From the NCBI RefSeq assembly GCF_007993045.1, contig NZ_VOOR01000004.1, positions 1-64,000 on the forward strand: a DNA stretch of 64,000 nucleotides, given 5' to 3'. The position numbers and the translations under genes were made by a program. Position 1 is the stretch's first letter. Each line of letters begins with the position of its first letter. The notes under the pieces were generated by a model. That model was not told where the DNA came from. It saw only the letters and a list, made by a program, of their open reading frames with translations, and made no database searches. The DNA is from Phaeodactylibacter luteus (GTDB lineage: Bacteria; Bacteroidota; Bacteroidia; Chitinophagales; Saprospiraceae). Positions 31,683-53,177 of this stretch are shown in pieces.

Positions 31683-32147
31683 CTATTCCAAGCTGTTTTC
31701 CAGTTGTTCTATCGCTCGCTGATACTTTTTGTAGCCCTCTTTGCAAGCTGTGTAGTAAGGGTCGGCCTCCATGATGGACAATGCCCGGCCGAGGTCTGTT
31801 TTTAGTGCGTAGGCGTAGCGTACCACTAGGCTGTCGCAACAGCAGATTGCTACTTTGGCACCAGGCATCCAATCTTCACAGCAGCTAGCATCTTTCAATT
31901 CACTGCGTTCTGCCAGTTCCGTTTGCCGGATAGCTTCGGTTTCCGAGATGGGCGGCGTGGGTATGCCCTCTGCCATAGTAGCAGAGGTATCAATGCTACT
32001 CAAGACCTTGTCGACCCCAGCTTTCGCCAAAACTTCTTCAGCGATTTTACGGTCCATTTTGCCTTTGTTGCCCTCTTGCTCACAGCCCGCGGACAAGCCC
32101 AGCAAGACAAGCAAAAAGATTGTGGTTTTAAATTGAATTGACCTCAT
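31683..32147 (-). CDS. Unrecognised lipoprotein, end of kinase cluster
   Basis: 154 residues. A signal peptide leads to the lipobox LSAGC with Cys22. The mature chain is acidic and helical and contains a Cys-dense middle (DASCCEDWMPG, KVAICCCDS), which is rare in a small lipoprotein and could bind metal or form disulfides. The C-terminus (YYTACKEGYKKYQRAIEQLE) is a helix. I know no family. It starts 12 nt after the permease gene, so it is the last gene of the thirteen-gene cluster. Confidence 0.75.
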   Translation of the reverse strand: MRSIQFKTTIFLLVLLGLSAGCEQEGNKGKMDRKIAEEVLAKAGVDKVLSSIDTSATMAEGIPTPPISETEAIRQTELAERSELKDASCCEDWMPGAKVAICCCDSLVVRYAYALKTDLGRALSIMEADPYYTACKEGYKKYQRAIEQLENSLE

Positions 32148-32159
32148 TCGTCATATTTT

Positions 32160-33722
32160 TTATTGTCCTCCCCTTTGGTATACAAGATCTCCAGGGGTTC
32201 GAGAAAGCACCCTGTGGATAAGCCGGCGAGCAAACAAGAGGGAAAGCAGGACCACCATAAGCAGCGCCATTGCAATCCTCCAATCTACAACCTCTATCTG
32301 TACCCTTGGCAGCAAGATTCCCAGAACTTGGCCCGCAACGAAGGCGCAAAGCCATGCGAAGGCACCGGCAACGATTAAAACAGCTAGGACTATTTTTGAA
32401 TAAATCCGTGAAATTTTGCCCGCAGAAAGGCCAAAGGCCTTTAGTGTGCCCATAACAGGTGTTATTTCTCGAATATGAGCAGACAGTAAGTTATTGATAA
32501 AGAGCACTACAGCAAGCACAGCGAAACCTAAGAGCATCAGACTGATCGCATACCCCAATAAACTGACTAGGGCGAAGTTCTCTTTGGCCTCTACTGTTTC
32601 CAAGGGCACTTTAATTTCAAAAGTTCTCTCTAGGTAGCTGCTGAACAACCGTACTTTTTCGAGTTCAGCAAAAGAAAAAGCCAAATAGTGCGCTTTGTTG
32701 GCAGTACCACGGCCGAGCTTGCACTCGTATTGAAATAGGGGCATCCCTTCCCAAGAAGCAGCAGCGAGCAGGCTGTCAGCCAGGCTTGGGAACTGACCGG
32801 ACTGCACCTCGGTAGCCTGAAGGTTCAGAAAGAGATTTATTTGTACTAGTTTCCCCGAAGAGCTTTCGCCAAATTGGCGGTACTCCAACTCTTCAATAGC
32901 CTCCCCAAAACGTTTTTTGAACGCCTTCTTGGCTTCAGTCTCCACCCCAAGAGCCACGAGGAAGGAATAGCGGTTGCTCCCTGCTTCATTCGTGCGGATA
33001 GCATTGCGGGCATAAGTCCTTGATTTAAAGGTTTGGTAAAGCGAGTAGCTGCCCAGAAAAACGACTTTGCTAGGCAATTTTTCTACTACTCCCCATACCG
33101 GGACAAAAAAGACCCCATCGTAAGTAGAATCATAGACCGGTATGTATAGCGGCTCAGCCCCCCATTCGTAGCCCAGTTCGTAAAGCAAAGATTGGCTGAC
33201 TACGATCCCTCCTTTAAGGGCTTCATTCCATGTACTCCTCGTGCCTTCCGGCCAGCTACTGTGGCGAAGATTGCCATCGCTGATGATGCGATCGAACAAT
33301 TCGGAACCAAAGTCAATCGTACGTCCCCAATAGTAGGCTCCATTTTCGCCCTTGGAAAACACAGAAGCCCTAGCCGGTAGGAAGGTAAAGCTAAAGCGGT
33401 TCCACTCGACTACCGTATCTAGCCCGAGGGCGGTACGCCGATCCGGCGCAGATACAGAATCCAGTACATCGGTCAATACAGGATCTATGTACGTGTCAAT
33501 AGGCAGGTTAACCCAAGTAGAATAGGGGTTGTCCATGCGCTGTTGCAAGTCTTCCAGGCTACTAAAAGCAAACCCAAGCGCCATTAACGTAAGCCAAAGG
33601 ATGAGCCAGAGCCAAAAGAGGCTGCCTGGTCGCCCTTTGTGGGCTAGAGCTATGTATTCGCGGTAAGCGAACAACTTTTCAAACTCATCTACGGGCCGAA
33701 GTAGCCACTTTTTCCAATCCAT
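32160..33722 (-). CDS. FtsX/LolC-like ABC permease
   Basis: 520 residues. One TM at about 33-54 follows a cytoplasmic N-terminus. A large extracytoplasmic region (about 55-390) follows, then three TM helices at the C-terminus around the FtsX signature VMGTLKAFGLSAGKISRIYS, finishing in VLSRTPGDLVYQRGG. This MacB/FtsX/LolE topology acts in lipoprotein release, export of peptides, or mechanical signalling to wall enzymes, rather than import. It pairs with the ATPase gene 11 nt upstream and lies in the kinase cluster. The substrate is unknown. Confidence 0.87.
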   Translation of the reverse strand: MDWKKWLLRPVDEFEKLFAYREYIALAHKGRPGSLFWLWLILWLTLMALGFAFSSLEDLQQRMDNPYSTWVNLPIDTYIDPVLTDVLDSVSAPDRRTALGLDTVVEWNRFSFTFLPARASVFSKGENGAYYWGRTIDFGSELFDRIISDGNLRHSSWPEGTRSTWNEALKGGIVVSQSLLYELGYEWGAEPLYIPVYDSTYDGVFFVPVWGVVEKLPSKVVFLGSYSLYQTFKSRTYARNAIRTNEAGSNRYSFLVALGVETEAKKAFKKRFGEAIEELEYRQFGESSSGKLVQINLFLNLQATEVQSGQFPSLADSLLAAASWEGMPLFQYECKLGRGTANKAHYLAFSFAELEKVRLFSSYLERTFEIKVPLETVEAKENFALVSLLGYAISLMLLGFAVLAVVLFINNLLSAHIREITPVMGTLKAFGLSAGKISRIYSKIVLAVLIVAGAFAWLCAFVAGQVLGILLPRVQIEVVDWRIAMALLMVVLLSLLFARRLIHRVLSRTPGDLVYQRGGQ

Positions 33723-33733
33723 CAGTAATCCGT

Positions 33734-34573
33734 TTATGCCTTAGCCGGCTGATACGGCGTGTCCAAACGTGCAGCTAGCCACTGTTCAGCATTTGGTACT
33801 GGTTCGCCGTTACAATGAAAACTACCTGTTGCTTCTCGGTGGAGCACCTGCTGATGATCGATAAAACCAGAGGTGCGCCCATCATTCATAGTAAGCAAGA
33901 TGGGGACGATCTGATCGGCAAATGCATCTGCAAGGGCGAGGTCATGGGAAACAATTATACCAGTCCTATCATCGTTTCTCAACTCTCTCTTTAACAGCTC
34001 CATGCAGGAATGAGCAGTGTGCCGGTCCAGATTGCCTGTGGGCTCATCGCCGAACAGGACTTCGTGAGGTGCCATAAGGCCCCTTATAAACGCAAGGCGC
34101 TGCCGCTGACCGCCGGAGAGGTCGGAAATACTGGCGCCAAAGGACTCCGGGGGCAACTTCAGCTGAGCCATATAAGCCCGAATTTTATCCTGTATACCTA
34201 TTTGCCCGTTAAGCAGTGCCGGCGCCATCATGTTCTCACCTGCGGTAAAGTTGGGCATGAGGTTAGTCTGCTGGAAAACAAAACTGAAGTACTGCTGACG
34301 GAAACTGGCGCGCGCCTGATCGGGCTGGGCCCAACACGCTTTCAGAGGCTTTGGCCGGCCTTCTGCCGGAAAAAAATCAAGCCGGCTAGCAGATCGAATA
34401 GTCCGGTTCATGAGCCCTAGGGTCTCCAGCAAGGTACTTTTCCCAACTCCGGAACTACCTACGATAAAAACCAGTCCCCCTCGTTCTATGTGCAGCTGTG
34501 GCACATAGAGGACTTTTGGGCCATTGCCATAAGCACAGTGCAGCTCTTCGATACGAAACAGGGGTTGCTGCAT
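33734..34573 (-). CDS. LolD/MacB-type ABC transporter ATPase
   Basis: 279 residues. Walker A is GSSGVGKSTLLETLG, the signature LSGGQRQRLAFIRGL, Walker B VLFGDEPTGNLD and the switch His in IIVSHDLALAD. The FVFQQTNLMPNFTAGENMMAP Q-loop segment is typical of the LolD/FtsE/MacB group, which powers FtsX-like permeases. The C-terminal extension of about 50 residues beyond the switch is slightly longer than usual. It begins 3 nt after the vWA protein gene, tying the transporter to the secreted signalling proteins of the cluster. Confidence 0.93.
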   Translation of the reverse strand: MQQPLFRIEELHCAYGNGPKVLYVPQLHIERGGLVFIVGSSGVGKSTLLETLGLMNRTIRSASRLDFFPAEGRPKPLKACWAQPDQARASFRQQYFSFVFQQTNLMPNFTAGENMMAPALLNGQIGIQDKIRAYMAQLKLPPESFGASISDLSGGQRQRLAFIRGLMAPHEVLFGDEPTGNLDRHTAHSCMELLKRELRNDDRTGIIVSHDLALADAFADQIVPILLTMNDGRTSGFIDHQQVLHREATGSFHCNGEPVPNAEQWLAARLDTPYQPAKA

Positions 34574-34576
34574 GAG

Positions 34577-37156
34577 TCAAAATACTTTTTCGATGGGCAC
34601 CCAGTAGTAGTTGGCCGCCCCATCGCTGCTCTGAAATTTGAATTCATAATCTGGGCCAAAAACCTCTTCCTCTAAGTCGAGCCGGATATTTGTAAACCGC
34701 TCCAATTGCTCGTCAATTAAGCTATCGGGCACGCTCTTCTCGTCTAAGATGCTTTCTAGAGAGACATTAGGCAGGTAATCAAATGAAACGCCCTCTGCAT
34801 TGAGCCCTTGAATGAGCCGGGCGACATCGCGGGGTGTAAACTGTTCCATTTGGCTATCGCTCAGCTTGCGATCGCCAGTAAATTCTTGGATGAGGGCTTT
34901 ATAGATGGCCACCAAGCTTTCCCTCTTAGAGTCATAAGAAGTGCCAATATTGCTATCGATCCGCTGAATGATGTTGAGGTAATTGGTCAGGTCCCTTTCT
35001 GGCATGAACAAGACATAAGACATAGTAGTGTGGCCGGCTCCCATCAGCTGACGTGGGAAATAGACTTCCTCAAAGAGCTGTAGTTTCTCGCCTAGCAGCT
35101 CATTCTCGATAGCCGTACCTTCGAGGATTTCGTTGATAAAGCCCACTACAACGGGGCCGAAGGAACCAGCAGACACATTGTCGAAAGACTCATCGACTGC
35201 CCCGCCACCGTCTATCAGTCCTGCGACCATTTGCTGGTACAAACCTAAGCGGTCGGCTGAAGCTTTCACGAAAGGCTCCACCTCTGCCTGCCAATCGCCA
35301 AACTGCTGCCCTTCAGCAGGGAAAGCCAGGCCGACGGGATAGCTGCCGCCTTCTGTTAAGACAAACCGGAAAGGCTCCTGTAGCCTGATGGGCACTGCCT
35401 CGAACTGAGGAGGGGGGACTTCAATCCCATTCTGCTCTGCAATCCGCTTCCCCTCCGACTCTACATTGCCATACCCTTCGTAGTAGGCTTTCTTTGCTGG
35501 CTCTTCGGAAAGGAAGCGGACCTCCTCGTGAAAGTCTGCGGCGGCCTTACCGCCTCTGTTCTGTAGCTGCAAAGCAAAGAAGTGGACATTGTTGTTTGTC
35601 AGCCGTTCGATTATTTCATCCGGACGGACCTGAGCTGCCGGGTGCTCCTTGTACTTTCCCGCCAGTAAACGGTTTTCTGAGAAATCTGGCGCCCCGCCCA
35701 ATACGATGACCACATTAGTCTCTTTGCTATTGAAGCCCACTCTTTTCAGGCCTTCATCCAAGGCATAGTAAAAAGCTGGGCGGTCATCCCCATTGCCCAT
35801 AAAATCCTGTAGGGGCACTTGTGCCAAAAAGTTTTTAAAGGCATCGTGAGAGGAAGATAGCTCTTGGATATCTAGTAGTTGGCTGCCCCCTTCAGCACTA
35901 TCATCGATGATGCTCCGGTAGCAGATTGCCCCAAATTCGATTTCGGCTGCTACATTGCTATACCATTCCTGAAGTTGATCAGCCAAAGAGAGGATACTTT
36001 CCCGTTGTGCAGACATACTGCCAGTAGCTTGTATGGCCAAGACCACATTGACCTTCCTGCGCTGTGCCAGCCATTTGTTGGCCCGGTCACGCACAGCGTC
36101 CCACTGAGCGGGGTCGATAACAGAGAGCTGCCCATTTCTGAGCTTTACGGTAATATCTCCTACTAAGCCGCTATAGAATAAATCTTCGCCCACCCGTTTT
36201 TCAGAAAAGAGCGGAAAACGGAGTACTGCACCTCTAAAACGCCTACCATCTCGCGCGAGGCTCCCTTTGGGCAAGCCAGCCGGGTCACGGTCCCAAGAAG
36301 AAGCAGTACCTACCTGACTGTTTTGGATATAGCGCTGTGCCTCCTCAGCAGAGCTGAAACCTTTAACTAGCAAATCTTCGTTGCGCTTACGCTCCTGAAA
36401 AGCATCGGAAGAGAAATTGGGCTCAAGGACAATGCGGGTGTTCCACTCCGTGCACCTGCTTGCTTTTACCCAGCCTACGATGATGCGGTCTATTCCACGA
36501 ATAGGAATATCGACTTCTTTAGCGATCAGGAAGCGCCCTCTTTCTTTTTTCAAAACAAAGAAGAAATTATAGATCCGAAGATTACCTAGCGGCTCCGCGC
36601 TTGCTCCTGGCCCACGATAAGGGGTGACTAGATCTTTTTCGCCAGAGAGGACGTTTTCCACATCGGAAGCCTTGTTGAGCAAAAAGACTTTGCTGTGTAT
36701 TTTTGAGTCTTTATTAATGATGCCATGCTGCCAGAGCAGCAGCTCTTTTTTCTTTACCCATCCAATCTCGGTATACTCCCCCCGTATCCTTCGTTTGTCT
36801 ACAGCATCCGCTTGGATAATTAACAACCAGTCATTTTCTTCCTCCAAGACAAAAAACTCCCCTTCAAGGTAGCCCAACTCCTTCTGTACTTTACTACGCT
36901 CATCTGGCTTCTGATGGGCTCTAACCCCATCTCGGTCAACATACACGATCCACGCCTCATCCCGGCTCTTCTCGCGGGTAGCAGTGCGCAAATAGTTTAT
37001 GTAGGCTTGTTCATTTCCAAATTGATCTTCGGGCAACTCGAACGCAAGAGGCTTTCCCAAGACGCTTTTAGCGCTAAGGTTACACGGGCTGCTTAATGCT
37101 CCTAGCACAAGAAATATGGCCACCCCTAATTGGCAGTAAAAATTCCGCAAAGTCAT
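34577..37156 (-). CDS. Secreted SH3-like/vWA-domain protein
   Basis: 859 residues. A signal peptide ends near residue 28 (NLSAKS). Residues about 65-240 hold two SH3-like modules (VYVDRDGVRAHQKPDERSKV, GNLRIYNFFFVLKKERGRFL). A vWA domain spans about 367-545, starting VNVVLAIQATGSMS and containing FGAICYRSIIDDS and NVVIVLGGAPDFSEN. Its MIDAS motif has Gln376 where Asp is expected, while the TGSMS part is kept, so classical metal-dependent ligand binding is doubtful. The fold and order resemble the vWA part of PpkA-type proteins in kinase-phosphatase-FHA regulons of type VI secretion, but no T6SS gene is here. The C-terminal 300 residues are unassigned and helical. Confidence 0.82.
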   Translation of the reverse strand: MTLRNFYCQLGVAIFLVLGALSSPCNLSAKSVLGKPLAFELPEDQFGNEQAYINYLRTATREKSRDEAWIVYVDRDGVRAHQKPDERSKVQKELGYLEGEFFVLEEENDWLLIIQADAVDKRRIRGEYTEIGWVKKKELLLWQHGIINKDSKIHSKVFLLNKASDVENVLSGEKDLVTPYRGPGASAEPLGNLRIYNFFFVLKKERGRFLIAKEVDIPIRGIDRIIVGWVKASRCTEWNTRIVLEPNFSSDAFQERKRNEDLLVKGFSSAEEAQRYIQNSQVGTASSWDRDPAGLPKGSLARDGRRFRGAVLRFPLFSEKRVGEDLFYSGLVGDITVKLRNGQLSVIDPAQWDAVRDRANKWLAQRRKVNVVLAIQATGSMSAQRESILSLADQLQEWYSNVAAEIEFGAICYRSIIDDSAEGGSQLLDIQELSSSHDAFKNFLAQVPLQDFMGNGDDRPAFYYALDEGLKRVGFNSKETNVVIVLGGAPDFSENRLLAGKYKEHPAAQVRPDEIIERLTNNNVHFFALQLQNRGGKAAADFHEEVRFLSEEPAKKAYYEGYGNVESEGKRIAEQNGIEVPPPQFEAVPIRLQEPFRFVLTEGGSYPVGLAFPAEGQQFGDWQAEVEPFVKASADRLGLYQQMVAGLIDGGGAVDESFDNVSAGSFGPVVVGFINEILEGTAIENELLGEKLQLFEEVYFPRQLMGAGHTTMSYVLFMPERDLTNYLNIIQRIDSNIGTSYDSKRESLVAIYKALIQEFTGDRKLSDSQMEQFTPRDVARLIQGLNAEGVSFDYLPNVSLESILDEKSVPDSLIDEQLERFTNIRLDLEEEVFGPDYEFKFQSSDGAANYYWVPIEKVF

Positions 37157-37169
37157 GTTAAGGAGTCAT

Positions 37170-38681: not shown

Positions 38682-38687
38682 TAATTG

Positions 38688-41600
38688 CTATTTTTGCAGG
38701 ATGACGCTCGCCCTAAAACGCTGCCCATCCCGGTTTTCTAAAATGAGATACACCCTACCCGATGGAGCCGCAGGGAGACGGACAGGCAGGAGCGATTGAT
38801 CACTGCTGACATCTACCTCCTGTACCAATAACCGCTGGCCCACAGCATTAAAAACTTGTAGCCAATAAGCCCCGGGCTTGGCCTGACGGACTTCTAGGGT
38901 AAACACCCCAGAGCTAGGGTTCGGGTATGCTACTAGTTGAGGCTTATGAAACTTTATCTCTTCTGATGTCGTGACTGGAGGGCGGTTAAAATAGCAGCGT
39001 GTAGCGCAAGCCTGGCTAGCGTCTTCACAATCTCCATTCCATATATCCACAAAATATATGCGTTCATCAGGTGCATAGGATGCCCCTGCTACATAAGCTT
39101 GGGCATTTTGCCCAAGCAAGGTGAATGCATTGCCATTGTTGATACTTATATAGCCCCATTGGTAGCAGGTAACCAAGGAGTCTACGCAAACCAAAATATT
39201 CCCAGCAGGCAGCCGTTCTACTGCTGCCACATCTGGTGCGACACCTGAAGACACCTCAAAAAACAAACTATCTGTACCACTGCAACCCACACTCAATGTC
39301 TCCTCAACCGCTATGAAATAACTCCCTGCCGGCTGGGTAATATTGAGAGCAACTTCCTCATTGGCCGCGTAGGAGATTTCACCCGCACTTGTTTCCCAAG
39401 TGTACTGTGGCTGCCCACTAGATGGGTTCATCACACGGAAAATATACTCGCTTTCATTCTGGCAAATATCAAGGTTATCCTGTGCCACAATTTGCGGTAC
39501 AGGCACAGGCAAGGCTGTAATATCAACATTGGCTTGGCCTATACAGCCATTTGTGTCTTCCACAACTACAGAAAGGTTGATATCCTGACTAAAATCCGGA
39601 TCTAAAAAGGACGTATCCGTAGAGAACACTACCCCTCCGATTTGCCAAGACACCGAGACATATTCCTCCACTTCCTCGAGACCGACATTGAGCGTGTCCC
39701 CCTTGCAGGTGGCCATAGCCCTAGTCATGATAGGCTCGGGCAGCGCATTAGGAGCTAAGGTATCAGACAACATCAATGCGGTTGCACAGCCGCCATCTAC
39801 CCCTACATCGTTGATACCTGAAATACTGAATACTGTAGCATCTGATACTGCGCCCTCGAATAGGATCTGTTCACCCGCCCCAAGTAGTGCATTATCCTGT
39901 AGCAAACCGCCCCTCCTCCATGTAACATCAAACGGTCCGATAGCGCCAGCAATACTAACCCCCAATTGCACCGTATCACCACTGCAGAAGCTTAGGGGGG
40001 GCAAAAAGGTAATCTGTGGACGCCCATATGCAATAACAGGCCGCCCAGGGGCTACTTGCCTGCAGACATCTCCTTCACTCGGAATGCCTGAGTCGTTGAG
40101 GTCATTACCGACAACGGCGCTTACATAATACACAATGCCACTTTCCATGCCTAGGTCCTCAGGCGAGCCAAAGTCCGGCGCTTCTAAGGCGCTGCTAACA
40201 AAGACGGTATCCAAGGGCTCCACTATTACGCTACCCCCGCCCCGGTGGAGTACGTACATGATGGCATCGTTCCCATCTAAGACAGTGCCAATACCCGGAG
40301 GAGTGACACTCAAGCTTGCTGTTTCACAGATCACTACAGTGTCTTGCCCCATTTGCCCGAGCATGGTTTCACAACCACAATCAAGCCCGCCTCCTGGCCC
40401 AGATAATGCCACAGAACAGCCATTGCTATTGCCCACGACAAAATCATAGCCCTCTTCATTTGGTATAGGGCTACTCGTAAAGCCTATACCTGCCCCAAAG
40501 GCGACATCATTAACGGTATACCCCCCTACAGCATTGGCTTCCACTTCGAATAAAACCTGATAGGCAGCATTAGTGATTGTGTCACATAGTAAATTCAGGT
40601 TGAATATTTCCGGCGGCTCGTTCACTGTATAGCTCGCCTGAATATCGACCTCTTCATTGAAGCAGCCCGTTTGATTATTCTCAAGGCGGTTGATAGTGAC
40701 CACCCCGCTCTCGACGGGAACGAAGGTGGTGACAAATGGGACTCCACCACTATTATCTGGACTGGTAAAAACCTGTGCGCCAAACTGATAATTGATATCG
40801 TAAGAATTCCCCGCCCCAATATTATTTGCGACTATCAATGTCCCCTGTTCTCCTTCGCAAAAGTCCTGATTGCCTGAATTCTGCGGAGTAAAGGTTACCC
40901 CGTCCACTTTCGGTTGTTCTGCTACATCTATAGACTGGGATGTGGTGGTTATACAGTTATTGCCCGTAACAATCTCTAAATGGATTTCCCAAGAGCCAGG
41001 ACTTGGAAATATGACCCCGCTTAACCCACCACCCTGCGAAAGGGAAAGCATATCGCCATTGCCTTGGTTTGTTTGCACAGCAGTGAGCTGCCCATTTCTA
41101 AGAAAACGCCACTTCCAATTTGTAATTTGCCCATTAGCACCTACAGCACCTGTCGATTGATCAGAAATGATAAACGCATTACCCTCGCAAATCTGATTGT
41201 TACCATTGCGCTGCACTGCAAACCCAGCATTACAAGTATTGGGGTCAATAATAGTGTAGGTCTCCTGGAATTCATCTGTACAGCCGTCATTATTGCGGAC
41301 CTCTAACACAACTGACAAGATACCAGGCATACCAAAGATAACATTAGGCACTACATCGTTGGATTCCGTTGGGGAAGGCCCTGCTGTCCCGGAAAAAGTC
41401 CACTCGTAATTACTGACCGAGCCATTTATTGTAGGGATAAAGGTACCTTGATTGCTAACCTGCAGTACCCCGGTAACGCTCACCTCTGTAATGTCAGGAA
41501 CAGGCAAGCCTGCAATCTCAACGTTGCTCGTATTCTCACATCCATTCGCATCTACCCCTGTGACGGTATAAATATTTTGACCTTCCTCCATTATGGTTGG

Positions 41601-43580
41601 GGTGAACATACTGCTTTGAGGCCCATTCGGGGCCCATTCGTACGATATCGCTCCAGTGGCTTGTAGGCCCGCGAAATCGCCCAAGCAAACTTGCTCATCA
41701 TTAGGTGTGCTGCCTGACTGATCCATAGATACGATGCCCACGTCTGGCAGATCGTGTACAGTGACCTGCATATTCGCTATGTCTATACAGCCTCTGTCAT
41801 CTGTAGCTGTAACCGAATATGCTTGGGTCTCGCCTGGAAATACCGTTTTCTCGCTACCTGTTCCTAGCCCTCCTGACCAAGTGTAAGAAAGCGACTGCAG
41901 CCCTGACTCAGGACTCGCCGTAAGCGTAATCGGAGCCCCTTGGCATATGATAAAATTATCAGGCTCTAAACCAGAGCTTTCTGTGCTGCTCATGGTGATT
42001 TCCGGGTTGTCAAAAACTTGCACCATGTAGGATTCTGTTTTCCTACATCCCTTAGCATCAGTAACTGTGCCTGGATAAGCCCCAGCTTGGCTGACTAACA
42101 GCTCGGCTGTATTCTGCCCTGCCCCCCAAGCGTATGTGTAAGGTGGATGCCCCTGCATGCCTAACATGGTGAGCACAGTGCTTCCTCCTTCACACAATAT
42201 ACCATCCTCAGATGATACGCCGGATTGCTCAGGCTCCTGGGCTGTTATCACAACCTCGGGGTTCTCATTCACGGTTACTTCCAACACTGCCATTGCTTGA
42301 CAGCCATTATCATTACGGCGGACTGTTAGACTGACCTCATAGTTGCCAGGCATACCGCTCTGGAATGTTGTTGCCGGCGTGTTGATGCTGGAAAGCTGAC
42401 CCCCACTGCTACCCCAAGTGTACTGTACCCCCGAAACCCCCTGGCCCGATATCTCCGAGCTAAGGCTCAACGGCAGCCCCGCGCATACTTCCTCTGATTC
42501 CGCCATTGTAATCTCAGGTGCCTCCTGATCCGCCGTAATGACGATAGATTCCATAACGGCACAGCCATTGGAGGGGTCGCTGACCGTTAAGGTGTAAGTC
42601 CCAGCCTGGCTTACTTCCAGCGTAGGCGACATGCTCTGGCCCCAAAATACATCCGCATCAGGTGTAGACGATGTGCCCACCAAGGTAACCGCCTCCACTG
42701 TACAAGTTAGCGTTGTCGCTGTGGGCGGCAATATGCTTATCTGAGGCAGTTCGACATCCTCATCTACTTCGACCTGCTGTTCCGATTGGCAGCCATTGCC
42801 TGTATCCGTGACGGTCACGGCGTAGATTCCCATTTCATCAGCTGTTATCCCACTCTCCGTCGACCCGGTATTCCAGAGGTAGATCCAGCCTGGCTGTGGA
42901 GAAGCCACCTCTACGGGCAATTCAGGCTGATCGCAAGTGAGCGTGCCCCCCATCAGCTGTGCTATGGTGAACGAAGGAGGGGTAAGGTCTTCCGAAATTT
43001 CTATTCCTGCCCGGTCGCTGCGGCACCCAGTCGAATTTTCCACTACAAGGCCATATTCCCCTGCTGCGGAAACCTGGAGGGAAGGGCCTGTAGCACCGGG
43101 GAGTATGGTGCCATTGATATCCCAAATATAGGAGGGGCTGTCACCTGCTGTCACATCAGCACTCAACGGCAGCCCATCCTCCTGAAAATTGCAATTATAC
43201 ACTGTCCCATCTATCGGGTTAATGGCACCAACGGGAGTGGGGCTGACGGCTACCAAAACCGTATCTGAGGCCATACAGCCATTCTCATCTGTCACTGTGA
43301 CGCTATACTCGCCTGCTAGCGCTGGAAAAAGCTCAAGTGTAGGGCCCATACTACCACCTGAGCTCCAAGTATATTGCAGCCCACCACCAAATCCGGTGGG
43401 CATAGCAGAAAGGATGAGATTACTGCCTTCGCAGACGCTCGTATCTTGGGGACTAAGCGCAACCTCTACCGCAGTGCAATCTTGTGCCTGTATAGGATTG
43501 GAGAAACTCAAGAGTACGGCAGCCATGATAAAGAGCCCGATGGCAAAGGGCAAGCGGGTATTTTGACTCATAGGATTCAT
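38688..43580 (-). CDS. Giant PKD/Ig-type surface protein, T9SS sorted
   Basis: About 1630 residues. A signal peptide (around FAIGLFIMAAVLLSFSNPI) leads to a long array of PKD- or Ig-like modules, each with the recurring strand ITVTDxxGC or SVTVTDENGCMAS, many Cys in pairs, and Pro/Thr-rich joints. The last ~75 residues form a T9SS type A sorting domain (VAYPNPSSGVFTLEVR ... RVYLILENRDG, ending SVILQK), so the product should cross the outer membrane and be anchored on the surface or released. Starts at 43595 and 43571 are also possible; 43580 leaves 4 nt after the lipoprotein stop. No catalytic domain is evident: it is more likely a structural, adhesive or ligand-binding part of the cluster. 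Confidence 0.88.
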   Translation of the reverse strand: MNPMSQNTRLPFAIGLFIMAAVLLSFSNPIQAQDCTAVEVALSPQDTSVCEGSNLILSAMPTGFGGGLQYTWSSGGSMGPTLELFPALAGEYSVTVTDENGCMASDTVLVAVSPTPVGAINPIDGTVYNCNFQEDGLPLSADVTAGDSPSYIWDINGTILPGATGPSLQVSAAGEYGLVVENSTGCRSDRAGIEISEDLTPPSFTIAQLMGGTLTCDQPELPVEVASPQPGWIYLWNTGSTESGITADEMGIYAVTVTDTGNGCQSEQQVEVDEDVELPQISILPPTATTLTCTVEAVTLVGTSSTPDADVFWGQSMSPTLEVSQAGTYTLTVSDPSNGCAVMESIVITADQEAPEITMAESEEVCAGLPLSLSSEISGQGVSGVQYTWGSSGGQLSSINTPATTFQSGMPGNYEVSLTVRRNDNGCQAMAVLEVTVNENPEVVITAQEPEQSGVSSEDGILCEGGSTVLTMLGMQGHPPYTYAWGAGQNTAELLVSQAGAYPGTVTDAKGCRKTESYMVQVFDNPEITMSSTESSGLEPDNFIICQGAPITLTASPESGLQSLSYTWSGGLGTGSEKTVFPGETQAYSVTATDDRGCIDIANMQVTVHDLPDVGIVSMDQSGSTPNDEQVCLGDFAGLQATGAISYEWAPNGPQSSMFTPTIMEEGQNIYTVTGVDANGCENTSNVEIAGLPVPDITEVSVTGVLQVSNQGTFIPTINGSVSNYEWTFSGTAGPSPTESNDVVPNVIFGMPGILSVVLEVRNNDGCTDEFQETYTIIDPNTCNAGFAVQRNGNNQICEGNAFIISDQSTGAVGANGQITNWKWRFLRNGQLTAVQTNQGNGDMLSLSQGGGLSGVIFPSPGSWEIHLEIVTGNNCITTTSQSIDVAEQPKVDGVTFTPQNSGNQDFCEGEQGTLIVANNIGAGNSYDINYQFGAQVFTSPDNSGGVPFVTTFVPVESGVVTINRLENNQTGCFNEEVDIQASYTVNEPPEIFNLNLLCDTITNAAYQVLFEVEANAVGGYTVNDVAFGAGIGFTSSPIPNEEGYDFVVGNSNGCSVALSGPGGGLDCGCETMLGQMGQDTVVICETASLSVTPPGIGTVLDGNDAIMYVLHRGGGSVIVEPLDTVFVSSALEAPDFGSPEDLGMESGIVYYVSAVVGNDLNDSGIPSEGDVCRQVAPGRPVIAYGRPQITFLPPLSFCSGDTVQLGVSIAGAIGPFDVTWRRGGLLQDNALLGAGEQILFEGAVSDATVFSISGINDVGVDGGCATALMLSDTLAPNALPEPIMTRAMATCKGDTLNVGLEEVEEYVSVSWQIGGVVFSTDTSFLDPDFSQDINLSVVVEDTNGCIGQANVDITALPVPVPQIVAQDNLDICQNESEYIFRVMNPSSGQPQYTWETSAGEISYAANEEVALNITQPAGSYFIAVEETLSVGCSGTDSLFFEVSSGVAPDVAAVERLPAGNILVCVDSLVTCYQWGYISINNGNAFTLLGQNAQAYVAGASYAPDERIYFVDIWNGDCEDASQACATRCYFNRPPVTTSEEIKFHKPQLVAYPNPSSGVFTLEVRQAKPGAYWLQVFNAVGQRLLVQEVDVSSDQSLLPVRLPAAPSGRVYLILENRDGQRFRASVILQK

Positions 43581-43584
43581 TGGA

Positions 43585-44658
43585 TTATTCTGCATAATTG
43601 TAGACCAAATCGTAAAGCGCAACCTGCCCGTTTGAGTAGCTCAGCTTTAATATTTCATTGCCAGCATCGCCCACACCAATGCAATTCTTTGCATTGCCAA
43701 GCGCAGGTGCAGCAGAGCCTTCCGGACACTTGACACTAGCTTTAGGCATGGCTTTGAGGGTATATGACTTTCCGGGGCGCAGCTCTTGATCAAAGCCGAT
43801 CAAGCTGATGGTGTTCCGTCCTGGAGTGAGGGTCTGCGTGGTACGCCAAGACACCCCTTCACCAAGGATTTCAACGGACAGCAAGCCGCAGGCTGTGGCT
43901 TGCACGCTGAACCGGCTCAGCAAGAGGTACTTTTCGGGCATCAGGTTTACAGCAGCGCCACGAGGTTCCGCCGCGCCACAGCTTTCATTGTAAGCGGAAG
44001 CCCGTACCCCTACTTGCCCCAATCCATTGTATTCCCGAGGTGGAGGGGGGGCGGGCAGCACCTCCTCTTCCAGTTTGATGGGTTCTGACGGTTCGGGCCT
44101 CTCATCCCTTTGCGTTAAGGGCTCTGGAGGCGGAACGACATCCCCCATGCTAACCGCAGGCTGTGCGGCAGGCTTCACCTGTTCAGGATTAATAGGCGGT
44201 CTAGGTTCAGTCGCTATTTGGGGTGGGAGCGGTGCTTCTACAGACTCCTCTGCTGTAATAAAAAAGAACTTCTCTTGGCAACGGGACTCCTCTCCACGGT
44301 AGATACAAACCCGTACCTGATGCCGTCCTGTTCCACCAATCGCCAGGCTAAGGCCCGGCTCCCCTGCAGCGTTTGGATACTCCATGCCGTCGACAAACCA
44401 TTGTATGTCATACCCGGCCTCTTTTTCCAGACCGGTCAGCAGCAGGATAGGCTCAGCGGAAGGCAGCTCTGGCGCAATGCCGGGGATGGGCTTATCCGGC
44501 TGCCCCGTCATCTGCCGGGTATCTGGATAGTCTTCGTTATTGATTAGCAGATCAAACCGGGGCAAAGGGAGCTCGCTGCAGGAGGCAAACAATAGCAAGG
44601 CAACAGCACAAAACAAGCAACGGGCCAAGGAGGGATTAAGGATGGCGTAGTCAAACAT
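43585..44658 (-). CDS. Unrecognised Pro-rich lipoprotein
   Basis: 357 residues. The lipobox LFASC gives lipidated Cys27. Residues about 65-135 form a beta-rich domain (LLLTGLEKEAGYDIQWFVDG, RHQVRVCIYRG) like a PKD/Ig fold. A Pro/Glu/Ala-rich linker spans about 140-215 (SVEAPLPPQIATEPRPP), suited to cross the periplasm or peptidoglycan. The C-terminal domain (about 218-357) has four conserved-looking Cys. Between the phosphatase gene (11 nt) and the giant surface protein gene, it may tether the inner-membrane signalling part to the surface part; this is inference. Confidence 0.78.
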   Translation of the reverse strand: MFDYAILNPSLARCLFCAVALLLFASCSELPLPRFDLLINNEDYPDTRQMTGQPDKPIPGIAPELPSAEPILLLTGLEKEAGYDIQWFVDGMEYPNAAGEPGLSLAIGGTGRHQVRVCIYRGEESRCQEKFFFITAEESVEAPLPPQIATEPRPPINPEQVKPAAQPAVSMGDVVPPPEPLTQRDERPEPSEPIKLEEEVLPAPPPPREYNGLGQVGVRASAYNESCGAAEPRGAAVNLMPEKYLLLSRFSVQATACGLLSVEILGEGVSWRTTQTLTPGRNTISLIGFDQELRPGKSYTLKAMPKASVKCPEGSAAPALGNAKNCIGVGDAGNEILKLSYSNGQVALYDLVYNYAE

Positions 44659-44669
44659 TTATTTCTATT

Positions 44670-46499: not shown

Positions 46500-46561
46500 A
46501 ATGATAGGGATTAGAGTTAATTGGCATTTGGCAAGAATTCCACAATAAGGCCCGTTGAGGT

Positions 46562-47530: not shown

Positions 47531-47573
47531 GGTATTTTTTTTAAGCCGGCAATACACCGACGGCATGACTGAT

Positions 47574-48383
47574 TTATTTTTGCATTGATGGAGCGTAAGG
47601 CATAAAGCGATACCGAGCTCCTCCGTACTCGACCGGCAGCAGATAACCAGCCATTCCAAAGTTGATTTCTCCATTGCCAGGGCTAGTTTCAGCAACCAAA
47701 ACCAGCCCGCCCTGCACCTTATTTGACAAGATTATAAATTCTCCACCGGGGGCGATGGGCAGCAAACAAAGCCGATAACCGGCCGCCTCTACTAACTCGA
47801 AGTAAAGGAGATATTGGCTGAGCGCTTCCAGGGAAGCCACCTTCATTCTATTTGGCCAACCCACCCCCTGATAAGCAAATGCCCCTTGTCCAAGGGTATC
47901 TAACTGTATCGTATCCTGCTGAATTATAGCCGTATCCGCACCAAATTCACTCAAGCTGTAGAAGTAAGCGCTCGTCAGCTGCCCTTTTTCCCAATAGTAT
48001 TCTGCTTGGTTTAAACGGAAAAAAGTGTCCCGTTGCCAAGGAGATAAAGCGGGCGAAAAAACGATAACGTCCGCGCCGACCGCAACGCCCCAGCTAAAAG
48101 GGAGCGGATGTGGCCTGTTCTCTGCAGACCAAGTAATCCCAAAGGAGTCAACAGGTAAAAAATCTTGCTGTATGGCGACAAGGTTTATGCTTAAAGCCCG
48201 GATCAGCTCCTGCTCAAATACACTATCGTTATTTTTACAGAAGCAGATATCCGGTTGCGCTGCTTCCTGTGCCAATAAGGGGTTGAGGCTGGCAATACCC
48301 CCCACCTGTAATAAGCATGCGCAGATGATTGCCCGAAGCCCCTTCCTAGACTCTATTTCCAAAAAGAAATGGCTTTTAATCAT
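47574..48383 (-). CDS. Unrecognised secreted protein in kinase cluster
   Basis: 269 residues. A hydrophobic signal segment at about 15-38 (GLRAIICACLLQVGGIASL, ending LLAQ) has an unusually long N-region (MIKSHFFLEIESRK). The mature part starts DICFCKNNDS with two Cys and continues as a mixed alpha/beta domain (WGVAVGADVIVFSPALSPWQ) and a beta-rich C-terminus (INFGMAGYLLPVEYGGARY). No motif recognised. Its ATG overlaps the stop of the FHA-protease gene as TGATG, so it is translationally coupled to the protease and may be its partner, substrate or inhibitor. Confidence 0.72.
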   Translation of the reverse strand: MIKSHFFLEIESRKGLRAIICACLLQVGGIASLNPLLAQEAAQPDICFCKNNDSVFEQELIRALSINLVAIQQDFLPVDSFGITWSAENRPHPLPFSWGVAVGADVIVFSPALSPWQRDTFFRLNQAEYYWEKGQLTSAYFYSLSEFGADTAIIQQDTIQLDTLGQGAFAYQGVGWPNRMKVASLEALSQYLLYFELVEAAGYRLCLLPIAPGGEFIILSNKVQGGLVLVAETSPGNGEINFGMAGYLLPVEYGGARYRFMPYAPSMQK

Positions 48384-49993
48384 CAGAACAACTGATTCAA
48401 TGCAACAACGCGGCCTGTAGACCCTAAGCTAAGAGAGACAATACCCACTGCAACATACTTGCCATCGCGAACCGCGAAAACAGGGCCTCCTGAAGCTCCG
48501 GATTCATAGCCTTTATTCGTCACCGTTATCATGCCCAGGAAGTTTTTCGTCTGTCCCGCCATACAAGTACTATAGAGCGGATCAAGATTCTTCATCTCTC
48601 CAGTTTGGAGGTACTCTCCGTGATTATAGCCAAGTACATGAAGCTGTTCCCCTTGTTGAAGGCTGTTGGCCACCTCCGCGCTCCACTCGATATTGCCTTT
48701 TCGGTTATTAAATTGAATGAAGGCCCAGTCAGAAAAAGCCCGTGTAGGATCACAATACCTTACCTCTAGTTGACGACCTTTACAATCCGCAATTGCCAGC
48801 TCATCGTTAGAGTCATCTAGCTTCACGTAATCAAAAGAAAAATTAAACGCATCACCATCAGGTGACTCAGCACGAAACGTGATACGGATAGAGCCACCTT
48901 GCACCTCCATAGCATTCAACACTGTAAGATCAGAGCACAACTCAGGGGAAAAGCGCCACCCTTGGACTACGTGGCGAGCTGTAACAAATTTGCCATCAGT
49001 GGTCAAGAAACCGGTACCGCTCCACTTCAGTTTTTCTTCGTTTGACAAATCAAAGACAGACGCTTCCCCGTTTATAGTTGCCTCTACTTTGTCTACTTTT
49101 AAGAAGTAGACACTTGGCTTGAACTGTCCAATCCCTATAGATGTAGAAGAAGTAGCCCCTCCCGCTACACTGCCCCCACCGGAAGTTGCAGATCCTATTG
49201 CCCCTCCCGAAACCTGCTCTTCCAAGTCTTTCTGCTTCTTCAATGCCGCAGCCAATTGCTGCCGTTGTTGCTTTAGCTGAGCAGCGGTAGCCTGCCCGCT
49301 TGCTTCTAGCTGCTCCAGTTCGGTTCGGGCCTGGTCCGCCTGCGTTTTTGCATCGTCCAAATCAATAGTGAGGGCTGCTATGTCATCTCCCTGTTCTTTA
49401 ATTTTACCTCCCTGCTCGGAAATCACGTACCAAGAGCCAGCTCCAAGGACAATGAGCAGGAGGGCGAGCACCCCCACAGCATAGCGATAAGGCTTCAGTG
49501 CCTGCTGGCTAAACAGCTGCATACGCTGGGTAAAGCCCATAGAGGAAGTACGGGTCTCTGTGGCGTTAAATCGGATAGAAGGCCCATCATTAGAGAGCTG
49601 AAGGGTATCCCCGTTCTGCAGCTCCGCTTCCTGGTTTTCCATCGTCAATTGCTCTACGGTGCCTGCAGTACCCCGCCGGATAATGGTCGGGTTAGTAGCG
49701 CTCAGGTGCTTGAGCATGACACGCCCGTTGTCCATACGCAGGGCAGCGTGCTTACGGCTTACTGTGCTGTACTCATCCCCAAACTGCACCACGCAATCGG
49801 AAGAACGCCCTAGCTCGACATAAGGGATGACAATGGTTTGAAAATCGCCCTGCCGATGCGATTTGGTGGCGTTTATATACGTGAGCGTATAGTTGGCCAC
49901 ATCCCTGCCGCCAAGGACTTTTGCGCCCTGACGCATGGTTTGGCTAAAGCTCTTTTTGCCCGTCAGGTTATTCCGCTGAGTTGGGTTCGCCAT
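48383..49993 (-). CDS. FHA-TM-trypsin-like protease
   Basis: 536 residues. N-terminal FHA domain at about 35-145 with the phosphothreonine-binding residues in LGRSSD (61-66) and SRKHAAL (79-85). One TM at about 171-191, a coiled coil at about 195-262 (DLDDAKTQADQARTELEQLE), and a Gly/Ser-rich linker. The trypsin-like domain covers about 292-536 with H341 (VTARHVVQGW), D422 (FSDWAFIQF) and S501 (ESGASGGPVF): a full catalytic triad. The FHA should read phosphorylated kinase targets inside the cell while the protease acts in the periplasm. It begins 2 nt after the TM kinase gene. Confidence 0.92.
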   Translation of the reverse strand: MANPTQRNNLTGKKSFSQTMRQGAKVLGGRDVANYTLTYINATKSHRQGDFQTIVIPYVELGRSSDCVVQFGDEYSTVSRKHAALRMDNGRVMLKHLSATNPTIIRRGTAGTVEQLTMENQEAELQNGDTLQLSNDGPSIRFNATETRTSSMGFTQRMQLFSQQALKPYRYAVGVLALLLIVLGAGSWYVISEQGGKIKEQGDDIAALTIDLDDAKTQADQARTELEQLEASGQATAAQLKQQRQQLAAALKKQKDLEEQVSGGAIGSATSGGGSVAGGATSSTSIGIGQFKPSVYFLKVDKVEATINGEASVFDLSNEEKLKWSGTGFLTTDGKFVTARHVVQGWRFSPELCSDLTVLNAMEVQGGSIRITFRAESPDGDAFNFSFDYVKLDDSNDELAIADCKGRQLEVRYCDPTRAFSDWAFIQFNNRKGNIEWSAEVANSLQQGEQLHVLGYNHGEYLQTGEMKNLDPLYSTCMAGQTKNFLGMITVTNKGYESGASGGPVFAVRDGKYVAVGIVSLSLGSTGRVVALNQLF

Positions 49994-49995
49994 AT

Positions 49996-51573
49996 TTACT
50001 CGGGTTTAATTGGATTGATTAATAAAGTTGAGGAAGGCAGTACCTTCATAAGTTTATCTAAAGTGATGGTTTCTGTAACCGATCGCCCCAGGGTGTCCCG
50101 CCTCAGCAAGACTCCCCCTTCCGGGGCAAAAGAGGCAAAAGTGACACCAGAAACGGCATGTACGGGCTCTGGGCCGCCCCGGAAAAAGTCCGCTCGCCGT
50201 TGCTTGTGGTCTATGGCCACGCCGACATCTTCCACCGCTAAAGCTTCATCGTACCTACAGGGGACGACCTCCTCGCCTGAGCTCAGGTCAAAAAAGCCCC
50301 ATTTGCCGGTCTGCGGATGGCGAACAGCTGCTGTGTGCCCCTTCATCGGCTTGATATCTGAGTAAGACTCCCTCATCACAGGCACATGTCCCAAAGGCTG
50401 TTGCGCTTCGGGCAATGGCCCTAGCTTTAGCGCCAGCTCAATATCCCGGCTCGCTGCCTCAAGATGCCCCCTGCCCCCTTCCTCCAGATGCTGCTGAGCA
50501 CTCACTAGGAATCGGGCCTGTACCAAGGGGGCGCCCCACCACCAGCTGGCAAAGCATAATACAAGCGCTAGACCAGCTGCAAGAACTTTGGTACGGGCTA
50601 AGCTGCTCCCCTTTCGAGGCGATACAGCCGGGCGGGGATATTCAGGTGCATAGCCTGCCCAGTACCCCGTCATTAGAAAATGTTTAAAATGGCTTTGCAG
50701 GTACTTAGCGCCTGGCCGATCTTCGGGTTTCCGGCTTAGGCACGGCTGCAGATAGGCTTGAAAGCCCTGAGACAGACCTCCTTCCTGGAATAAAGCCGGC
50801 GCGGCTTCATCCGGATTGTAGTGCATATGCCGACCTAGCCCGCCCTGGGCGACCGGAAGCCTTCCAAAGGCAACTTCATAAAGCGTCACAGCGAAAGCGA
50901 ACAAATCGCTTTCCGCCTCCCCCTTGTAATCTTTCCCCCATTGCTCAGGCGCAGCATAGGCCGGAGAAAAACCAAGGCTTTCCGCTGTTTCTGCTGCCCC
51001 TTTAGCTGCAGTCCTTCTCTGTACCTCTTGCAATAGCTCCATCGATACATCAAAATCACTGAGCAGGTAGCGCCTATCCCCATCGAGGCCATCGATATAC
51101 ATGATATTGGAAGGCTTGATATCAAGGTGTGCCATGCCCTTGTGCGCATGCAGATAGGCCAGCCCTCCTGTGACACACTCCCCAATCGCAGCTAATTCTC
51201 TTTCCGTGAATAGAAGCTGCCCGGGCGCTCCTCCACTTTCTTTTACCACAGCAATGCCCCGCTCTCTGCAGAGCTGTTCTAACGTACCATCGCAAAGGGG
51301 CAAAACATAGTACATCCGGTTATCGTACTCCCCTATTTCTATTGGTCTACATAGGTAATCGCTATCCGCATCTGCTAGTGCAGCGAATTGCCTGCGGCGC
51401 AGTGCTTTTTCAGTAGTAGAGGCTGCCTGCTCTGTTACAAAAAACTTGACCGCTACAACACTACCTTCTCCAGCAACCTGCTGAGCTTCCCACACTTCCG
51501 ACTCCCCACCGCTATTGATATAGCGAGTTAAACGGTATCCCCCAACTTGTTCTCCTTTTTGTCTTACAGCCAT
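49996..51573 (-). CDS. Transmembrane Ser/Thr kinase with WG-like repeat
   Basis: 525 residues. Kinase domain at about 10-300: Gly loop INSGGESEVWEA, ATP-binding Lys43 (VAVKFFV), catalytic loop HLDIKPSN (149-156; HLD in place of HRD), metal motif DFD (173-175) in place of DFG, and AAPEQW at about 207. The key Asp residues remain, so activity is likely. TM at about 329-346. Outside, a WG-repeat-like segment occurs at about 412-445 (AAVRHPQTGKWGFFDLSSGE). It lies 11 nt after the FHA-kinase and 2 nt before the FHA-protease, so kinase and reader are produced together. Confidence 0.9.
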   Translation of the reverse strand: MAVRQKGEQVGGYRLTRYINSGGESEVWEAQQVAGEGSVVAVKFFVTEQAASTTEKALRRRQFAALADADSDYLCRPIEIGEYDNRMYYVLPLCDGTLEQLCRERGIAVVKESGGAPGQLLFTERELAAIGECVTGGLAYLHAHKGMAHLDIKPSNIMYIDGLDGDRRYLLSDFDVSMELLQEVQRRTAAKGAAETAESLGFSPAYAAPEQWGKDYKGEAESDLFAFAVTLYEVAFGRLPVAQGGLGRHMHYNPDEAAPALFQEGGLSQGFQAYLQPCLSRKPEDRPGAKYLQSHFKHFLMTGYWAGYAPEYPRPAVSPRKGSSLARTKVLAAGLALVLCFASWWWGAPLVQARFLVSAQQHLEEGGRGHLEAASRDIELALKLGPLPEAQQPLGHVPVMRESYSDIKPMKGHTAAVRHPQTGKWGFFDLSSGEEVVPCRYDEALAVEDVGVAIDHKQRRADFFRGGPEPVHAVSGVTFASFAPEGGVLLRRDTLGRSVTETITLDKLMKVLPSSTLLINPIKPE

Positions 51574-51584
51574 AATCGAAGGGG

Positions 51585-53177
51585 TTATAGGGTAATAAAT
51601 TTGAGCTTCACTTCACCGGCTAGAGTGATGATGTCACCGGCTTCCAACTTGCGGTAGCCTTGACCGCTGATGTTCTCGTAAGTGCCTTTTTCAGCATTAT
51701 AGATTTCAGTCTCATTAGTAGAGCCCTGCCAGCTATTTGAGGTAGCTACCCCATCACGAATAGCCCAACCTACCTTTTCCCTCCTGATGGTAGCGTGACG
51801 ACGGGAAACGAAGTAATCGTCGTTCGGCTTAGGGATTTCATCTACAGCGATATCCTGCTGTACACTAGCATCTCTCCGTCCAATGATCAACTCTCCTGCT
51901 GAACCTACTGCCCTTTCAGAAAGCAACGCGCCCAAGTCAATCTGAGCCTGACCGCTGCCCCCTGAAAGGAGCTGAAGCCCAAAACGTTGTGCCTTCTCTT
52001 CTGCCCCAGCACTTTCTTGGTCTTTCAATGGCGCAGCTGAACTAGAAAAAGCTGACCAGGCAGCAGCAGGTGCTGGCGTGGGCATTTCCCCTCCACTACG
52101 GCGCATGACCACCTCATGGTTGACCATCTGCAAAAAGTGGTAAGGCCCCGGCATGCGCTTTCCAGGATCAGGCTCTAGGCAGCTGTGAATGGCGTGCGCC
52201 CAATTGGGGTCGATATCAGGCCGGTAGAAACTAATGGGCTGAAATTCCCCGTCACGCTGCCGGTTGAAATATGCTTCTTGGTCTTGCTCAAAATCGTCCA
52301 ATGTCCCCCAAGGGTATTTGCCACTTGTCAACAAATGGTAAACCGTCACTCCAAAGGCGAACATGTCCATAGGGGGGAGCGTAAGCCGGTACACATCTTT
52401 CTCGCGCAGCGACTCTGGCGCAGCAAAAATAGGCGTGAACCACATTTCTTTCACCTTGCCACGTACCGATACAGTAGTCCGGTTATTAAGAAAGGCTGAG
52501 AGGTCAAAGTCTGTCAGTTTGGGATTGCCCACCTCATCGAAGAGTATGTTCTTCAGCTTGATGTCACGATGGATACAACCGCTTGCATGCAGCGTCTGCA
52601 GGCCATATAGCAGCTTTACAATCATAGGCTCGTATTGCTCCGGCTTATAAAAGTCGGGCATACGGGTTTCCAGGTCTCCTCCTCCACAATACTCCATGAG
52701 AATTGCAGGGTTGGATTTACAATAGCCCTTGTGATAATACTTGACCAGATAATCTGAACCCAAGCGGCCTGCCGAATAGCTTTTCTCAAACCGCTGCTTA
52801 AGGCTATGCCACTCCATAGGCTGCTTTTTCCAAAGGTCCAGTATTTTCAAGGCATACTGCTTCCTGCCCTCCCCTTCTACTTGATAAACGGAGCCACAGC
52901 CTCCTTCTCCTAGTTTGCGTATGACCTGAAAGGGCTCCCCTGTGGTCCCCCCTGGGTCGAAAACAGCCGTATCCCCTTCGCGGTAATTCACCACGCCAGG
53001 TATGTGTATACCCTCAAATCCAGGGCGGGAAAGAGCAGGGGAATGGGCAGGCTCAGGAGGGGAGGCTAAGGAAAACAACTCCCTGGCCCAATCCAGGCTA
53101 CGGGACAATAGCCCGCGCCTATGCTCAGGAGCCCCTTGGGGAGACTGTTTCTTCCTAGAATTGGTCTTGCCAAACAT
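51585..53177 (-). CDS. Cytoplasmic Ser/Thr kinase with C-terminal FHA domain
   Basis: 530 residues. Kinase domain at about 83-355: GEGGCGSVYQV with Gly loop 90-95, Lys111 (YALKIL), catalytic loop HRDIKLKN (203-210), DFD (223-225) and AAPESL (about 252). A Pro/Ala/Ser-rich linker (about 364-395) leads to an FHA domain at about 412-530 with IIGRRD (431-436) and SRRHATI (458-464). No TM. A kinase fused to its own phosphothreonine reader suggests autophosphorylation-driven assembly. It is the first gene of the cluster, preceded by an AT-rich 1-kb gap with a promoter match. Confidence 0.92.
   Translation of the reverse strand: MFGKTNSRKKQSPQGAPEHRRGLLSRSLDWARELFSLASPPEPAHSPALSRPGFEGIHIPGVVNYREGDTAVFDPGGTTGEPFQVIRKLGEGGCGSVYQVEGEGRKQYALKILDLWKKQPMEWHSLKQRFEKSYSAGRLGSDYLVKYYHKGYCKSNPAILMEYCGGGDLETRMPDFYKPEQYEPMIVKLLYGLQTLHASGCIHRDIKLKNILFDEVGNPKLTDFDLSAFLNNRTTVSVRGKVKEMWFTPIFAAPESLREKDVYRLTLPPMDMFAFGVTVYHLLTSGKYPWGTLDDFEQDQEAYFNRQRDGEFQPISFYRPDIDPNWAHAIHSCLEPDPGKRMPGPYHFLQMVNHEVVMRRSGGEMPTPAPAAAWSAFSSSAAPLKDQESAGAEEKAQRFGLQLLSGGSGQAQIDLGALLSERAVGSAGELIIGRRDASVQQDIAVDEIPKPNDDYFVSRRHATIRREKVGWAIRDGVATSNSWQGSTNETEIYNAEKGTYENISGQGYRKLEAGDIITLAGEVKLKFITL

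Follow-up and report, generated by a model that had tools for sequence, protein, structure and literature searches.

Closest described systems and the cluster in the window

TssR is one of the five membrane-complex proteins (TssNQOPR) of the type VI secretion system (T6SS) of Bacteroidota, T6SSiii, and carries a lipoprotein signal peptide (SPII) in B. fragilis (PMC10781749). Homologues of the membrane complex were not detected outside T6SS loci, no locus independent of T6SSiii was reported to encode the gene set, and its origin was considered hard to identify (Bongiovanni et al. 2024, PMC10781749). In the Pseudomonas T6SS, the outer-membrane lipoprotein TagQ, the periplasmic TagR and the ATP-binding cassette (ABC) pair TagST are placed upstream of PpkA/PppA/Fha (PMC6657622). 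Here, we describe a cluster of 13 genes at positions 31683-53177 of a 64,000-nt stretch of Phaeodactylibacter luteus (contig NZ_VOOR01000004.1, positions 1 to 64,000; hereafter the window). The cluster consists of two modules, each of which is also found apart from the other: an envelope module (PKD surface protein, outer-membrane protein (OMP), TssR, LolD-like ATPase, FtsX-like permease, small lipoprotein) and a signalling module (kinase-FHA protein, membrane kinase, FHA-membrane-trypsin protein, PP2C phosphatase). The joining of TssR, a family until now reported from type VI machines only, to a kinase/phosphatase/protease set in genomes without a detectable syringe-like machine suggests a stand-alone envelope signalling system.

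Like the T6SSiii TssNQOPR complex, the cluster has a TssR with barrel, vWA and C-terminal domains and a PKD protein nearby. T6SSiii loci of Chitinophagales also share LolD-FtsX beside TssR, which is a fusion there and encoded by separate genes in the window. In contrast to T6SSiii, the cluster is without TssN, baseplate, sheath, spike and ClpV, and a signalling module is added. As in the TagQRST-PpkA-PppA-Fha1 pathway of the Pseudomonas H1-T6SS, kinase, PP2C and FHA are clustered with an ABC pair, a lipoprotein and a periplasmic factor, whereby the ABC pair is likened to TagTS by kind of gene. Unlike in this pathway, no T6SS sheath or spike which could be controlled was detected in the window genome, an FHA domain is joined via a transmembrane (TM) segment to a periplasmic protease, and TssR and a putative surface protein of the type IX secretion system (T9SS) stand in place of TagR/TagQ.

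The Saprospiraceae T6SS loci of G322/G200, G481/G205, G410/G208 and G237 contain much of the kinase-lipoprotein-PKD-OMP-TssR-LolD-FtsX-lipoprotein block in the window's order with PP2C nearby. However, these loci also have TssN, TssK, TssF/G, VgrG, TssB/C and ClpV, no FHA-trypsin was found in them, and they encode a short PP2C from a different subgroup than the window's. Conflict systems of the TerY-P type and vWA-linked systems (eLife 2020, PMC7159879) combine kinase, PP2C and vWA as well, whereas the window vWA domain belongs to a TssR whose N terminus is signal-peptide-like instead of to a cytosolic adaptor, and Ter proteins are absent. In the literature searched, no description of the combination without a detectable contractile machine was found; the component domains are all known.

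Identity of the vWA protein

The original prediction listed the 859-aa protein as a vWA protein and stated that no T6SS gene was present. The vWA domain was recovered, but the protein matches TssR (PF17643) with E=2.4e-10, which is above the cut-off. TssR_VWA (1.4e-4) and TssR_C (0.0087) follow in the expected domain order, both under cut-off, and the protein aligns along its length with a true T6SSiii TssR. On this evidence, the 859-aa protein is a member of the TssR family. The statement that T6SS genes are missing was thus wrong, because TssR is a T6SSiii membrane-complex protein; furthermore, the PKD-OMP-TssR-LolD-FtsX-lipoprotein block adjoins complete T6SS loci in relatives. The N terminus of the window TssR is signal-peptide-like, and a canonical lipobox was not seen using a simple pattern. 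No solved TssR structure was found by sequence search.

Search for a contractile machine

The window genome (G000) is 99.85% complete in 301 contigs. Profiles for TssC (PF17541), VipB (PF05943) and the VgrG-type spike (Phage_base_V, PF04717) gave no match in it. The phage-type sheath (PF04984) gave none either, this profile being weaker than the spike profile; it missed one genome which has the spike (G207). The same profiles detect the systems of relatives, with full-length TssC at 1e-63 or better and spike at 1e-15 or better. Within the cluster, to which this Pfam search was confined, no TssN, TssK, TssF or TssG was found. Accordingly, the window genome has no detectable contractile machine of the T6SS type or of the extracellular contractile injection system (eCIS) type, as judged by these profiles. 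Neither TssC nor spike was found in G430 or G343, and all three genomes in which both modules are complete are without TssC and spike.

Envelope module in Saprospiraceae

Of the 298 Saprospiraceae genomes, about 31 encode a TssR-like protein at E < 1e-60; most weaker matches span the vWA domain only. Among the 32 TssR genomes searched (the weaker G258 included), TssC was present in 13 and absent in 19, and restricting the set to good-quality genomes left 17 of 28 without TssC. One TssC-less genome, G369, is a single contig and has a spike, but far away. Ten genomes, including the window's, had neither TssC nor spike; on these grounds, eCIS anchoring was rejected as the general role of the module. 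For TssR, the 2024 statement that no homologues were detected outside T6SS loci therefore no longer holds.

In all loci with fully read flanks, TssR is followed by LolD and FtsX; it is usually preceded by OMP and a large surface protein, and a small lipoprotein usually comes after. This module occurs in three settings: beside a complete divergent T6SS, on eCIS contigs, or in genomes without a contractile machine. In G200/G322, G205/G481, G208/G410 and G237, a kinase stands before the block and the adjoining T6SS comprises PP2C, TssK-like, TssN, TssF-like, VgrG, TssC, TssB and ClpV; Pfam gave TssN at 4e-29, a TssG match under cut-off and a Zn-ribbon FHA protein in G200. The fusion of the Chitinophagales T6SSiii loci was found beside TssR in L030, L031, L054, L132 and L137. 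Since the TssR-ABC unit is found beside T6SS loci and elsewhere, it is part of T6SS biology without being restricted to it.

The eCIS lies on the TssR contig in Portibacter, G302 and G341. A spike at a great distance or on a separate contig, as in G369, G420, G156 and G307, likewise weighed against anchoring as the general role. Distances of about 30-80 kb on the same contig were noted for G203/G032 C65 (L148, L149), G045 C11, G302 C67 (L121) and G341 C253; the eCIS genes in G203 encode sheath, eCIS_core protein and PAAR. The LolD-FtsX fusion has about 806-840 aa (L030:5225-10167, L031:5722-10664, L054:9815-14876, L132:7478-12311, L137:13037-18252), and a LolD-FtsX accessory beside TssR goes unmentioned in the 2024 membrane-complex paper (PMC10781749). 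Two or three TssR-like genes per locus were seen in G156, SMBSF39 and G226 (L024:74-4025, L050:9132-14389, L132:5650-12311).

Signalling module and joint cluster

FHA-trypsin was detected at E < 1e-50 in nine of the 298 genomes, five of which also have TssR. This co-occurrence is above chance (P=0.0008; 0.0045 after dropping G464 as a duplicate). The matches for TssR and FHA-trypsin have identical coordinates in G464 C574 and G430 C36, contigs whose genomes are assigned to different genera (g194, g187); this agreement points to a shared or misbinned contig.

Conservation of gene order in related genomes had been named beforehand as a test able to refute the original prediction, and it was found. 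G430, a 100% complete genome of another genus, contains nearly the full window set in the window's order on one strand: zinc-ribbon protein, STK1-FHA, STK2, FHA-trypsin, secreted protein, PP2C, 456-aa protein, giant T9SS-tailed protein, small protein, OMP, TssR, LolD, FtsX and a further small protein. BLAST recovered counterparts in G430 for 11 of the 13 genes; those of both lipoproteins are weak, and the clear matches show 24-46% identity. Much of the set, namely kinases, FHA-trypsin, PP2C, lipoprotein and TssR-LolD-FtsX, is gathered around one locus in G343, where the first half is inverted, and G307 combines kinase-FHA, PP2C and STK2 with the TssR module, lacking FHA-trypsin. Of the single new system that had been proposed, the joint unit is upheld by G430 and G343; an indivisible new machine is not, and two separable modules fit better. 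Its reading as an export system found no support.

In genomes lacking TssR, other envelope genes adjoin those for kinase-FHA, FHA-trypsin, PP2C and STK2. A CHU_C T9SS substrate follows the signalling module in G140 and PorP/SprF in G168 (L187, L188, L184). In G377, which is of the window's genus, genes homologous to the ExbB-like gene of G307 and to its neighbour are inserted in the signalling module (L182:12166-17499, L183:1-4745).

The window TssR nests in a T6SS-linked clade (support 95/98 and 98/98), and G430 pairs with its genus-mate G463, a T6SS carrier. The ABC tree does not settle the window's placement. A single origin of the kinase-linked TssR type was considered as well; neither tree supports it. 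As the TssR and ABC trees were midpoint-rooted, TssR may have begun either with a T6SS or apart from one. In the lineage of the window itself, the simpler reading is that the T6SS half was lost.

Weighing of explanations and proposed mechanism

We give about an even chance to the cluster being a two-module trans-envelope phospho-signalling system which resembles TagQRST/PpkA, has no contractile machine, and controls or senses a T9SS-exported surface protein. Several points weigh against it. A contractile system may have been missed or be very divergent, because the genome is in 301 contigs. The signalling module occurs without TssR in G377, G140, G168 and G259 and the TssR module without kinases nearby; thus, coupling of the two is not obligatory. 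In addition, the kinase-linked members are scattered and form no single clade in the TssR tree or in the ABC-pair tree, so that the pairing of kinase and TssR appears to have formed or broken several times.

That each module is found without the other would also be expected of two independent adjoining operons, one with kinase-FHA-protease-PP2C that serves a different process and one with TssR-ABC and the surface protein, and gaps of ~45-62 nt occur inside the signalling half. However, in both the window and G430 the two halves adjoin without a gap or strand change, the modules co-occur above chance, and T6SS-linked TssR loci also have an adjoining kinase and PP2C, albeit of other subgroups. 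We therefore hold two operons to be rather unlikely, but a stronger contender than the following two explanations. The cluster could belong to a T6SS as its regulatory and envelope wing, with sheath and baseplate genes elsewhere, in assembly gaps or too divergent for detection, given that four relatives have this envelope block next to complete T6SS loci, that the window TssR nests with the TssRs of such loci, and that G463 has TssR block and TssC on separate contigs. This is improbable, as sheath, spike and TssC profiles capable of detecting the relatives' systems found nothing in a nearly complete genome, and G430 and G343 are likewise without TssC and spike. A decaying remnant of a lost T6SS, whose envelope and regulatory genes are kept by inertia, would agree with the same position of TssR in the tree and with the absence of TssR from other genomes of the window's genus. 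Yet none of the 13 closely packed genes is disrupted, G430 keeps nearly the same set and order with 24-46% identity in the clear matches, and the kinase, phosphatase and protease motifs are intact, which leaves the remnant as the least probable of the three.

In the proposed two-module signalling system, the T9SS-exported PKD protein would be located at the surface, and OMP, lipoproteins, TssR and PKD protein together would span from periplasm to surface. The LolDE/MacB-type ABC pair could couple cytosolic ATP hydrolysis to a periplasmic conformational change. Surface contact or envelope stress felt by the envelope module would pass via TssR-ABC to the kinases and shift the kinase/phosphatase balance. 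Through the FHA-TM-protease, binding of phosphothreonine in the cytosol would be tied to a serine protease in the periplasm; phospho-binding by FHA may switch this protease as the output, which would then process or release parts of the surface or outer-membrane complex. Among working systems, TagQRST-PpkA-PppA-Fha of Pseudomonas comes nearest to this scheme. A physical complex, the signal's direction and the protease substrate are what we infer here, the direction being a guess. More tentatively, and with somewhat lower probability than the signalling system itself, TssR and FtsX/LolD may form a trans-envelope machine that is independent of contractile injection in Bacteroidota and regulated by a phosphothreonine-gated periplasmic protease. 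If true, TssR-ABC would be a general envelope device common to T6SSiii, eCIS-linked and contractile-free lineages, with bearing on how the T6SS membrane complex of Bacteroidota arose. Origin versus co-option is directly testable, as TssR and its ABC partner are present in conserved order in many genomes without TssC and several without detectable spike. A phosphorylation-linked periplasmic protease would be a possible new regulatory principle.

Gene inventory

The 13 consecutive minus-strand ORFs of the original prediction were confirmed and are all intact. They are separated by 2-13 nt or overlap by 1 and 11 nt, apart from two wider gaps (62 nt and ~45 nt) flanking the 322-aa secreted gene at ~46.5-47.6 kb. 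For this gene and the PKD gene, the mechanically assigned TTG starts probably lie upstream of the real ones.

Table 1. Genes of the cluster in minus-strand order, with window positions.
Feature	Position	Strand	Evidence or remark
STK1-FHA, soluble Ser/Thr kinase, FHA C-terminal, 530 aa	51585..53177	-	Pkinase 1.1e-37, FHA 5.4e-7
STK2, Ser/Thr kinase, one TM at ~324-353, 525 aa	49996..51573	-	Pkinase 1.6e-24; TM by hydropathy
FHA-TM-trypsin, predicted cytosolic FHA, one TM, periplasmic trypsin-like protease, 536 aa	48383..49993	-	FHA 2e-9, Trypsin_2 5e-10
Secreted-like protein, 269 aa	47574..48383	-	N terminus signal-peptide-like; no Pfam match
Secreted-like protein, 322 aa	46562..47530	-	kept between FHA-trypsin and PP2C in G430, G140, G168
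PP2C phosphatase, one TM, C-terminal extension, 609 aa	44670..46499	-	PP2C_2 5.7e-9
Lipoprotein, beta-rich domains, 357 aa	43585..44658	-	lipobox; low-to-moderate confidence model
Giant PKD/Ig-like surface protein	38688..43595	-	PKD_4 3.4e-15
OMP, NTF2-like N-domain and OmpA-like barrel, 503 aa	37170..38681	-	model pLDDT 71.7, Foldseek
TssR-like periplasmic vWA protein, 859 aa	34577..37156	-	TssR Pfam domains
LolD-like ABC ATPase, 279 aa	33734..34573	-	ABC_tran 2.1e-19
FtsX/MacB-type permease, predicted 4 TM and large periplasmic domain, 520 aa	32160..33722	-	FtsX 1.4e-5
Small probable lipoprotein, last in cluster, 154 aa	31683..32147	-	homologues after FtsX in G322, G481, G410, G237

Pfam matches bear out the two Ser/Thr kinases, two FHA domains, PP2C and ABC_tran/FtsX that had been predicted, and likewise Trypsin_2 and PKD. 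The protease had been assigned a full triad; H, D and S are conserved in relatives, with protease motifs intact in seven of them. Kinase, phosphatase and protease motifs in the window were found intact by sequence inspection. According to topology estimates, the single TM of STK2, PP2C and FHA-trypsin separates in each case a signalling part in the cytosol from a part in the periplasm. The permease has the layout of MacB/LolCE-type transporters. Additional matches are a weak WG repeat in the C-terminal part of STK2 (WG_beta_rep 2.3e-4) and a Stp1-like PP2C profile in the phosphatase (2.9e-50, under cut-off).

For the giant protein, PKD was verified and the predicted T9SS sorting is less certain: its C-terminal Por_Secre_tail (E=0.003) stays under cut-off, whereas the G430 counterpart reaches 3.6e-16. 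The several lipoproteins or secreted unknowns reduce to one clear lipobox by simple pattern (357 aa), one probable lipoprotein (154 aa) and two secreted-like proteins (269 and 322 aa). Identity of the OMP with PorP/SprF was rejected on a negative profile comparison and on the modelled fold, a model of moderate confidence; its homologues are found beside TssR in relatives. A conflict or defence system was likewise rejected, for PADLOC matches kinase, protease and ATPase domains, but no set of any one system. The fold search for the 357-aa lipoprotein gave no match at or below 1e-3; in T6SS-linked loci, its homologues precede the PKD gene. Both flanks are ordinary, with GDSL lipase and UvrB upstream and type I phosphodiesterase/nucleotide pyrophosphatase, nitroreductase and pirin downstream. 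The two FHA domains found in the whole window genome are both inside the cluster.

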